A stretch of DNA of 5,192 nucleotides, taken from Bacteroidota bacterium. Lineage in GTDB: Bacteria > Bacteroidota > Bacteroidia > Bacteroidales > UBA1556. The notes below the pieces were generated by a model. It was given only the letters and a program-made list of their open reading frames with translations, searched no databases and was not told the DNA's origin. The position numbers were made by a program, and so were the translations under genes. Shown here in pieces: positions 2,195 to 5,192 of this stretch. The stretch lies in NCBI GenBank assembly GCA_003973505.1, contig QNXT01000117.1, forward strand, positions 1 through 5,192, read 5' to 3'. Every line of letters begins with the position of its first letter. The first letter of the stretch is position 1.

Positions 2195-2202
2195 TACATT
2201 TG
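2195..2202 (+). promoter_or_regulatory. Candidate -7 element directly before the sigma-factor start codon
   Basis: TACATTTG matches TAnnTTTG exactly and ends four bases before the ATG at 2207. Transcription from it would begin at or within a few bases of the ATG, giving a leaderless or almost leaderless mRNA. No clear TTTG/TTG -33 element lies 19-21 bp upstream; that position instead holds the palindrome GGTTTTAAACC (2165-2175). A second exact match, TAAATTTG (2133-2140), would give a conventional leader of about 60 nt and is the main alternative, also without a clear -33 element. In such AT-rich DNA one of these may be chance. Confidence 0.4.
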
Positions 2203-2206
2203 TAAT

Positions 2207-2755
2207 ATGTCAAATTATACTGATCAAGATATTTTAGCACTTTGCCGTAATCCGGAAACCAAGGAGCGCGGCTTTCGTATTTTAATGAGTCAGTATAAGG
2301 AACGTACCTATTGGCATATTCGTCATATTTTACTCGATCACGATGATGCCAACGACATTACCCAAGACACATTTGTGAAAGTATGGAAGAATCTCGAAAA
2401 ATTTCGTGGCGATTCTTCACTTTTCTCATGGATTTATCGTATTGCTACCAATGAAAGTCTGAATTTTCTCCGTAAAATGAAGAACAAAGCCACCTCACCA
2501 ATAGATAAAGTGGAGTACTTATTGGTAAATAAATTAGATGATAATAGCTTGATGACAGGTGATGAAATTGAAAGAAAGCTTCAAAGGTCATTACTCGAAT
2601 TGCCTGAAAAACAAAGATTGGTTTTTAATATGCGCTATTTTGAAGACTTAAAATACCAAGAAATATCCGATATTCTTGGTACGTCAATCGGAGGATTAAA
2701 GGCTTCGTATCATCATGCAATTAAAAAAATTGAAGAAAACTTAAAAATGGATTAA
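2207..2755 (+). CDS. ECF-type RNA polymerase sigma factor
   Basis: This is a 182-residue alternative sigma factor that would direct RNA polymerase to a specific promoter set. The sigma-70 region 2 domain covers about residues 22-92. It includes the core-binding stretch DDANDITQDTFVKVWKNL (from about 46) and the -10 recognition/melting helix SLFSWIYRIATNESLNFLRK (71-90). A short linker (about 93-118) leads to sigma-70 region 4 (about 121-178), with LPEKQRLVFNMRYFEDLKYQ and a helix-turn-helix ending GGLKASYHHAIKKIEENL. This LKASYHHA-IKKIE ending is characteristic of a Bacteroidetes ECF group. The lack of regions 1 and 3 fits the ECF class. The start is fixed because the next Met (residue 27) would cut into region 2. 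It is followed after 40 bp by a single-pass membrane protein, the usual place for an anti-sigma factor. Its target promoters cannot be told from this window. Confidence 0.95.
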   Translation: MSNYTDQDILALCRNPETKERGFRILMSQYKERTYWHIRHILLDHDDANDITQDTFVKVWKNLEKFRGDSSLFSWIYRIATNESLNFLRKMKNKATSPIDKVEYLLVNKLDDNSLMTGDEIERKLQRSLLELPEKQRLVFNMRYFEDLKYQEISDILGTSIGGLKASYHHAIKKIEENLKMD

Positions 2756-2756
2756 A

Positions 2757-2784
2757 CCTTTTGATGACTTACTCATCATAAAGG
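2757..2784 (+). promoter_or_regulatory. 11-bp hairpin between the sigma factor and its partner gene
   Basis: CCTTTTGATGA (2757-2767) pairs with TCATCATAAAGG (2773-2784) around a CTTAC loop: 11 base pairs interrupted only by one bulged T (2779). It begins immediately after the sigma-factor stop codon (TAA, 2753-2755) and ends 11 bases before the next ATG. No T-tract follows, so it is not an intrinsic terminator. It could set the ratio of sigma factor to partner protein through mRNA stability, processing or limiting ribosome access. The two genes are otherwise arranged as an operon. Confidence 0.55.
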
Positions 2785-2795
2785 TCGCGAATGAT

Positions 2796-4181
2796 ATGAA
2801 AGAAAAAAGTAATATAGAGGACATTAATCAAGAACTGCAAGGTTTCCCAAAGCTGAAAAGCTTAAAGGGGAAACAGACCTTTAGCGTTCCAGATTCTTAT
2901 TTCGACAATCTTGAAGACAGTATCATGTCTAAGATTGAGAATGAGGCTGTCCCTACATCTGCTCGAAAATTTCATTTAAGTACTAAGCAAATACTATATT
3001 ATGTTGCGGCAGCAAGCATAATAAGTATTTTTGTTTTTATAGCATTTCGCTCAGCAAACCAATCAACAAACCAACCTCCAATTGCAATTCAACCAAACAA
3101 AACCCTTAATACGAATAACTCAATTGTAGAGGTCGGTGCAGGTAATAAAAAGCCTGAAAAGAATGTCGCTAAGAAAAATGACAATGAAACGATTCAAAAG
3201 GTAGAGACAGCCAACGAAAAGTCAATTGCTATTGAAGAAAATAATACTCCTATTAATAAGGTGTCAAACAATAAGCAAAAAATTCATCAAAATAGCCATA
3301 AGTCTAATATCACTTCAAGCCATGATGATACCCCAGAATACGAAATGGCAAATAATAATCAGGAATTCAATGGAGATATTAGTTCTAGAGAGCTAAATGG
3401 ACAAGTTGTTTCAGGAGGTTCAATAAATACGGTAAATTCCAATACTTCATCATCACTTAGTATAGCACGTACAGCAATTCAAAAAGATTTGTATTTAGGA
3501 GATAACATTTGTAGCAGTGAGCCAGTAAAACTTAATGCTTTCATTAAAGATATAGACAGTTTGAAATATAAATGGTCAACAGGTGATACTACGGCAATCA
3601 TTATCGTTAGAGAAAGTGGTGATTATTGGGTTAAGGTTTACGATATTAAAAACAATTTTCTTGGATCAGACACCATAAATGTTAGAATAGTAAATAAGCC
3701 TAATCCTAATCTTGGTGCCGATAAAAGCATTTGCAATTATGAGTCATTGTTGATTTCTTCAGGATGTAATAATACAGAATTCGATTATCAATGGTCTATT
3801 AGTGATGCAACAACTCCTGAAATCTATTTAACGGATATGAATCCGGGTGTTTATACCATTACACTTTGGGTGAAAAGTTGTGCAGATACCATTAGCAGCA
3901 CGATGAGGCTTACGGTGAATGATTGTAATTTGAAAATTCCTAATGTAATTACACCCAATGGAGATGGCCGGAACGATCGTTTCGTAATTTCTGGACTTGA
4001 GCATTATCCAGGTAGTCAATTACACATTTTAGATAGGAATGGTCATATTGTTTTCGAGGCTATCGATTATCAAAACAATTGGGATGCTAGTAATATCCCT
4101 TCGGGAACCTATTTCTACCGTTTGCAACTTAACGATGGAAAAGCTTCTGAGAAAAATGGTACTTTGTCAATAATCCGATAA
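2796..4181 (+). CDS. Putative membrane anti-sigma/sensor protein with T9SS type B C-terminal domain
   Basis: This 461-residue protein has an unusual mosaic architecture. Residues 1-64 are a hydrophilic segment with VPDSYFDNLEDSIMSKI (31-47), resembling the xVPxxYFxxL motif of small proteins encoded beside Bacteroidetes ECF sigma factors. One transmembrane helix follows (about 66-84), with positive charges before it, predicting the N-terminus in the cytoplasm. Residues 90-230 are a low-complexity linker rich in N, K, S, T and E. Two Ig/PKD-like units follow (about 232-299 and 303-375), with motifs YKWSTGDT, SGDYWVKV, LGADKSIC and PGVYTITLWV. The C-terminus (about 377-461) is a CHU_C / gliding-motility C-terminal (T9SS type B sorting) domain: IPNVITPNGDGRNDRF, LHILDRNGHIVFE, NNWDASNIPSGTYFYRL and the NGTLSIIR ending. 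No conventional N-terminal signal peptide and no zinc anti-sigma HxxxCxxC motif is seen. A sigma-inhibiting role is inferred from position and the YF motif; the alternative is a surface protein merely co-transcribed with the sigma gene. Confidence 0.85.
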   Translation: MKEKSNIEDINQELQGFPKLKSLKGKQTFSVPDSYFDNLEDSIMSKIENEAVPTSARKFHLSTKQILYYVAAASIISIFVFIAFRSANQSTNQPPIAIQPNKTLNTNNSIVEVGAGNKKPEKNVAKKNDNETIQKVETANEKSIAIEENNTPINKVSNNKQKIHQNSHKSNITSSHDDTPEYEMANNNQEFNGDISSRELNGQVVSGGSINTVNSNTSSSLSIARTAIQKDLYLGDNICSSEPVKLNAFIKDIDSLKYKWSTGDTTAIIIVRESGDYWVKVYDIKNNFLGSDTINVRIVNKPNPNLGADKSICNYESLLISSGCNNTEFDYQWSISDATTPEIYLTDMNPGVYTITLWVKSCADTISSTMRLTVNDCNLKIPNVITPNGDGRNDRFVISGLEHYPGSQLHILDRNGHIVFEAIDYQNNWDASNIPSGTYFYRLQLNDGKASEKNGTLSIIR

Positions 4182-4969: not shown

Positions 4970-5000
4970 TTAGGATGTAAAGAAAAGTTGTTTACTTTTG
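4970..5000 (+). promoter_or_regulatory. Tandem promoter P1 (TAnnTTTG type)
   Basis: TACTTTTG (4993-5000) matches the Bacteroidetes -7 consensus exactly. It is preceded at 19 bp by TTAG (4970-4973), a degenerate -33 element, and followed by CAGCCGCTT. Transcription should start about 4-7 bases after 5000. AT-rich sequence with T-tracts lies directly upstream. It is the first of three similarly built promoters pointing right. Confidence 0.7.
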
Positions 5001-5063
5001 CAGCCGCTTTGGAAGGAAGATATGATGAGAGAGAAACAAAGCGAAAAAAGTTAATATTTTTTC

Positions 5064-5093
5064 TTGGACATAACAAAATAATATTTATCTTTG
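5064..5093 (+). promoter_or_regulatory. Tandem promoter P2
   Basis: TATCTTTG (5086-5093) is an exact -7 match, with TTG (5064-5066) 19 bp upstream and GCAGCCGCTT running on from its final G. It is the best consensus fit of the three promoters. An A6...T6 inverted repeat (5044-5049 with 5057-5062) lies directly upstream of its -33 element. Confidence 0.75.
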
Positions 5094-5155
5094 CAGCCGC
5101 TTAAATGGACAGCGATTTAGTTGAAAAGAAAAGCGAAAAAAAGATAAATTTTTTG

Positions 5156-5185
5156 TTTGTAGTTTGAAATAAATAATTATCTTTG
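5156..5185 (+). promoter_or_regulatory. Tandem promoter P3 at the right edge, probably for a stable-RNA operon
   Basis: TATCTTTG (5178-5185) is an exact -7 match, with TTTG (5156-5159) 18 bp upstream and GCAGCCCG running on from its final G to the window end. Strong tandem promoters of the TTTGCAGCC form are typical of the region before rRNA or tRNA operons in Bacteroidetes, so a 16S rRNA gene is expected to the right; its start is not in the window. Confidence 0.7.
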
Positions 5186-5192
5186 CAGCCCG

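Follow-up and report, generated by a model that had tools for sequence, protein, structure and literature searches.

The locus and its two genes

The window, by which the whole stretch of 5,192 nucleotides analysed here is meant, carries two adjoining genes on the + strand. The upstream one (2207..2755, +) encodes an ECF sigma factor of 182 amino acids, recognised by the Pfam models Sigma70_r2 (54.8 bits) and r4_2 (54.2 bits) and by TIGR02937 (101.5 bits, cut-off 42.9). It is followed by the gene of a putative anti-sigma factor of 461 amino acids with a type IX secretion system (T9SS) type B domain (2796..4181, +), an assignment based on the sequence, Pfam, NCBIfam and AlphaFold2 and, regarding the sigma linkage, on homologues. 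Directly 5' of the sigma gene, TACATTTG (2195..2202, +) is housekeeping-like by its sequence, TAnnTTTG being the Bacteroidetes housekeeping promoter consensus, and an ECF-like (GCAAC-type) motif was not seen 5' of this gene.

The partner protein begins with a cytoplasmic YF segment, presumed to bind the sigma factor (residues 8-50; 2817..2945, +), having the VPDSYF motif at residues 31-36, in a placement identical to that of the relative P0001, and helices at residues 8-13, 18-22 and 39-50 in the AlphaFold2 model. A transmembrane helix with the N-terminus inside follows (residues 63-87; 2982..3056, +), modelled as a helix by AlphaFold and showing a hydropathy of 2.4-2.9 in the closest relatives, and then a disordered tether of approximately 130 residues rich in N, S, Q, K and E (residues 89-216; 3060..3443, +), with pLDDT below 50 across most of residues 89-219. 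The tether leads to a first Ig-like unit (residues 238-298; 3507..3689, +; pLDDT approximately 90, with Ig matches by Foldseek/VIA) and a second Ig/PKD-like unit (residues 301-375; 3696..3920, +). The protein ends in the type B sorting domain of T9SS (CHU_C; residues 379-461; 3930..4178, +), matched by PF13585 at residues 379-458 (79.1 bits, cut-off 27) and by TIGR04131 at residues 380-461 (51 bits, cut-off 35), and thus complete. The succession of sigma gene, YF segment, helix, linker, Ig units and sorting domain, as read in the earlier note, was confirmed by open reading frame coordinates, Pfam, NCBIfam and AlphaFold2. Its two Ig/PKD-like units are indeed two beta-sandwich folds in the AlphaFold2 model (residues about 238-298 and 310-375), but the PKD likeness holds for the second unit only and stays below the Pfam cut-off (24.8 against 27). 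By structure matches, the Ig units resemble GhpA, a surface protein.

An Rfam scan of the window gave nothing above gathering scores, and a phage origin was discarded with zero matches among 50,697 phage records. At 4973-5192, in an AT-rich stretch 3' of pnuC, an element whose end is TTTGCAGCC recurs at intervals (a 68-nt pair 92 bases apart with 72% identity and a 37-nt pair 93 bases apart with 73%); these copies may be housekeeping promoters arranged in tandem for the gene that follows.

Two classes of anchored partners behind sigma genes

A protein search with the window partner returned 468 matches, and the whole architecture was found in 43 of the 120 listed, each of which aligns with the window protein over its full length at 24-93% identity; the shared full-length layout of these 43 indicates that the architecture did not arise by chance. 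After the truncated rows P0019 and P0058 were left out of the alignment (A1), TIGR04131 was found in all 44 YF rows (E <= 0.001). A few homologues carry PDSFF in place of YF, and the helix of P0037 lies below the hydropathy limit used. The most hydrophobic helix begins at residue 51-69 in 44/44 proteins, 51 being the value of a truncated entry, and K/R residues are more numerous before the helix than after it in 37 of the 44, with equal numbers in six. From the helix end to the first Ig unit, the distance has a median of 143.5 residues (129-193).

Searching a genome collection with the N-terminal alignment produced 189 stretches, 67 of them encoding relatives. All 67 YF N-termini have an ECF sigma gene, detected with our own sigma profile, on the same strand and less than 600 bases 5', so that the proposed pairing of YF membrane proteins with ECF sigma genes stands; as for a YF N-terminus lacking a sigma gene, 0 exceptions were found among the 67. 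Only three loci (L001-L003) encode a sorting domain, and the other 64 partners are short (117-320 aa); therefore, the YF segment is a general sigma partner and the T9SS domain an addition in one branch. The YF unit is repeated in some short partners: L050, L052 and L056 (sigma at 5392) have Mucilaginibacter-like partners, the unit of L052 being repeated about six times in tandem ahead of the helix, suggesting that the unit is a repeatable sigma-binding module. Regarding the full-length YF+CHU_C form, 26 of 395 genomes of a class sample matched at E <= 1e-40, with four candidates scored per genome, and since a whole-length match was limited to the genome at the centre of the sample, this form looks rare among sequenced species. 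By eye, L002 and L003 share a gene order (transketolase halves, sigma, anti-sigma, PnuC, NadR-like ATPase), and at L002 the YF+CHU_C locus is followed by two near-identical ordinary CHU_C proteins of 837 aa.

A second class, here named W-type, comprises proteins of approximately 300 aa whose cytoplasmic motif is different and whose helix and tether are followed by the sorting domain only. CHU_C was matched in 34/34 aligned proteins, and the genes lie behind sigma genes in 10/10 genomes. A profile built from ten N-termini matched 102 of 198 sampled Bacteroidia genomes, the class being taken as Bacteroidia via the Bacteroidales-titled record at the sample centre. The 30 top-ranking loci, one from each of 30 genomes, five of which had already come up, all combine an upstream sigma gene with CHU_C, and at least 32 of the 102 genomes carry the sorting-domain form. 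Among 20 weaker matches, a sigma gene precedes all (19 detected by script, L322 by inspection), and 15 look barrel-ended, two CHU_C-ended and three short; these were chosen by open-frame length (15 of 457-560, five shorter), thus the counts of barrel and CHU_C forms are not a rate. When OMP_b-brl models were applied to ten barrel-like proteins, six scored above the cut-off, two below it and two gave no match. Both versions are held by one genome, G192 (CHU_C at L158, barrel at L317). In total, 55/55 distinct W-type genes are preceded by a sigma gene. An apparent second sigma gene was seen directly behind the sigma/anti-sigma(CHU_C) pair at L158, confirmed by profile, and at L279, L280, L281 and L283, noted without the profile.

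The W-type distance from the helix end to the sorting domain has a median of 149.5 residues (123-185, n=34). That two unlike N-termini come with similar tether lengths would be expected if a constant gap, presumably the periplasm, had to be spanned.

The linkage is specific to anchored proteins, as seen in 40 CHU_C open reading frames for which 700 bases or more of upstream sequence were available, where a sigma gene lies upstream of 11/11 with an internal helix (one YF and ten W-type genes) vs 0/29 others (Fisher p 4e-10). Twenty ordinary controls were chosen from plus-strand rows.

The altered sorting domain and its T9SS context

Across 86 sorting-domain columns, the tryptophan of the NRWG signature is the sole one that is strongly conserved in ordinary domains and lost in anchored ones. 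It is present in 88 of 96 ordinary type B domains (15/15 neighbouring cargo proteins, 27/28 controls and 46/53 secreted database hits) vs 0/115 anchored domains (0/44 YF, 0/34 and 0/37 W-type), and an alignment-free check with the string RWG gave 87/96 and 0/115, respectively. The window domain reads DRNG in place of NRWG, the position of the tryptophan being taken, in the domain comparison, by the codon of Asn415 (4038..4040, +). The anchored domains are specialised, as judged from these sequences, and the earlier suggestion that an anchored sorting domain could not be used for ordinary secretion found unexpected support in this uniform loss (115/115). As reported for Flavobacterium johnsoniae SprB in PMC12618676, mutation of any of five type B C-terminal domain motifs abolished secretion. 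NRWG presumably falls within one of these five. A repeated convergent loss was considered and set aside: the domain tree has 8 label changes, yet one origin is not rejected (AU test p 0.238). A literature search gave nothing joining the NRWG signature with type IX secretion.

The genomes encoding anchored proteins possess the corresponding machinery, as PorP/SprF occurs in 13/13 host genomes and SprA in 12/13 (not in G003, of 2.0 Mb), and 14 control genomes have neither. In addition, at 15 of 37 W-type CHU_C loci the adjacent downstream gene codes for a large secreted protein of type B. Fifteen loci were chosen for closer study because their next gene looked secreted, and 14 of these neighbours end in CHU_C (607-2336 aa, 3-117 bases downstream); the neighbour at L159 (704 aa, 143 bases) is the 15th, and Pfam confirmed CHU_C in 7/7 scanned. 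Judging from the spacing, the W-type sigma/anti-sigma pair and its cargo neighbour would form one operon. At L337 / G353:C30, two PorP/SprF genes and an FGE-sulfatase lipoprotein, which we take to resemble GldK/GldJ, lie just 5' of the sigma/anti-sigma(CHU_C)/cargo genes. A preferential match between the sorting domains of anti-sigma factor and cargo at the same locus (ranks 1-14 of 15, permutation 20/5000) is not claimed, because it is confounded by kinship.

Regarding promoters, TGCAAC-N17-C(A/G)TC was found 5' of the sigma gene at 21/37 W-type CHU_C, 4/15 barrel and 2/3 short loci, and at 0/64 short and 0/3 CHU_C loci of the YF class, the upstream region of L001 being partly N. Six other spacings of the motif did not occur 5' of sigma genes, except one, in the YF set. 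In ten whole genomes, TGCAAC-N17-CATCT had 50 matches vs 13 for N18 and 15 for N15. Among the 46 matches examined (four in G300 were left out), seven lie before sigma genes themselves and eight before exported proteins, of which six belong to G192 and two to G343, and an exported protein follows the control spacings N18 and N15 in 0/13 and 0/15 cases; outside G192 and G343, the remaining N17 matches are mostly within genes. Among the exported proteins of G192, 5/6 have a type A T9SS domain above the cut-off and the sixth has one below it, and no T9SS domain was found in the two of G343. Four of the six G192 genes appear paralogous, and the motif may serve other sigma factors of this genome too. 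A 1298-aa CHU_C protein (L230), 137 bases behind a G192 site, was not counted because no ATG lay within the limit. The link between ECF sigma factors and T9SS that the earlier note had drawn is supported in the sister W-type class, by neighbours and promoters, but not in the YF class itself, to which it may extend by analogy only.

Proposed function, rival readings and known systems

The architecture and its pairing with a sigma gene are solid. The ECF sigma factor of the window is probably kept in check by an inner-membrane partner with an altered sorting label, most likely an anti-sigma factor resembling the Dma proteins with a T9SS domain in the place of the barrel, a reading suggested by the W-type N-terminus, which also heads barrel-ended proteins with the published Dma layout. 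Thus, the YF segment would retain the sigma factor in the cytoplasm, the binding being modelled in a single fused AlphaFold chain, viewed without an error map, of a pair other than that of the window. The single helix would span the inner membrane, and the disordered tether of about 130 residues would cross the periplasm, bringing the Ig-like units and the type B domain up to the outer membrane. The type B domain would then make contact with the matching branch of T9SS, most likely through a shuttle of the PorP/SprF type. Since PorP/SprF barrels bind type B domains, a tethered one would provide the anti-sigma factor in trans with the hold on the outer membrane that Dma has in cis through its built-in beta-barrel, and would tie it to T9SS traffic. 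Being anchored and devoid of the NRWG tryptophan in its sorting domain, the protein is proposed to dock but not to be let go as cargo, and this tethered docking by an anti-sigma factor of the upstream ECF sigma is on balance probable. We infer both the docking at the shuttle and the direction of the signal, where the sigma factor would be set free, perhaps via proteolysis, once occupancy of the site changes or the tether is pulled. Hypothetically, the window partner senses the state of T9SS; as a secretion-load sensor, it would hold out a tryptophan-less bait that competes for the shuttle unreleased, so that T9SS capacity, whether free or jammed, sets cargo transcription via the cognate sigma factor in a feedback loop, an extension that we regard as tentative.

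An ordinary T9SS adhesin lying by chance behind a sigma gene, with the helix as an uncleaved or misjudged signal peptide, would explain the sorting domain and Ig units, a combination typical of such adhesins. It is nevertheless very improbable, considering the conserved cytoplasmic segment of at least about 50 residues before the helix and the upstream sigma gene in 67/67 YF and 55/55 W-type vs 0/29 ordinary proteins; a signal peptide was rejected on account of the helix start at residue 51-69 and the sigma linkage (11/11 vs 0/29), as the earlier note had anticipated. Another reading keeps the anti-sigma role and takes the CHU_C-like domain for a periplasmic beta-sandwich sensor of wall, glycan or stress, borrowed from a secreted protein and without T9SS contact. 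The loss of the hallmark tryptophan and the 64/67 YF loci whose short partners lack CHU_C agree with it, but every other column strongly conserved in ordinary domains is kept in the anchored ones, and the cargo neighbours, the G192 cargo promoters (both of the W-type class) and PorP/SprF in 13/13 host genomes speak against it, making it quite unlikely.

The C-terminal part of the anti-sigma factor could also be secreted via T9SS and shown outside on a PorP/SprF barrel, the protein then spanning both membranes and, as is possible for Dma barrels, sensing an external ligand or the surface. This display at the surface, for which the domain complete by Pfam and NCBIfam, the similar tethers of both classes, the GhpA-like Ig units and the Dma precedent can be named, is possible but rather unlikely, as the tryptophan is gone from 115/115 anchored domains and, in the account of SprB in PMC12618676, all five motifs are needed, the tryptophan presumably belonging to one.

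Literature searches found nothing joining the gliding motility-associated C-terminal domain with anti-sigma factors, and the matches listed for CHU_C together with sigma factors appeared unrelated. If docking without release is true, this would be a direct transcriptional read-out of T9SS, found nowhere described in the literature searched, and present in many Bacteroidia, given W-type N-termini in 102/198 genomes and the sorting-domain form in at least 32. T9SS is used for gliding and for adhesins, as well as for virulence in some members, and the matching of cargo production to secretion capacity becomes a testable question, with the single missing tryptophan as a precise entry point to the features that render a type B signal releasable.

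Among known systems, FecR is likewise a single-helix anti-sigma factor reporting the state of the outer membrane; it contacts a TonB-dependent receptor and, unlike the window protein, has no T9SS domain. In Porphyromonas gingivalis, PorA, which bears a C-terminal sorting domain, influences SigP, the ECF sigma factor of T9SS genes (PMC7712824), similarly tying such a protein to an ECF sigma factor; however, PorA as described there is a surface protein acting via a two-component system (PorXY), without an anti-sigma part. PorP/SprF barrels are described as binding partners of type B domains (PMC9143113), with the pairs SprB-SprF and PG1035-PorP (PMC9143113, PMC12618676). The window protein shares with such cargo the complete PF13585/TIGR04131 domain and the Ig-like units, and PorP/SprF occurs in the hosts of its relatives, but an inner-membrane anchor replaces the cleavable Sec signal peptide, a sigma factor is co-encoded, the NRWG tryptophan is missing and a PorP/SprF gene was not noticed directly downstream, by eye and without a profile. 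The Dma proteins, dual membrane-spanning anti-sigma proteins that act with ECF21 sigma factors in Bacteroides thetaiotaomicron, are described as a sigma-binding domain, a helix, a disordered tether and a barrel (PMC13088901). The likeness concerns this layout as described, not the sequence, and the window sigma factor is compared without assignment to the ECF21 group: an adjoining ECF sigma gene, an N-terminal segment presumed to bind the sigma factor, a single helix, a long disordered tether and a C-terminal part destined for the outer membrane. The window protein differs from the published Dma layout in ending in Ig units and a T9SS type B domain in place of a C-terminal beta-barrel, and it has the YF N-terminus, unlike the W-type N-terminus, which heads both barrel proteins of Dma layout and CHU_C proteins.
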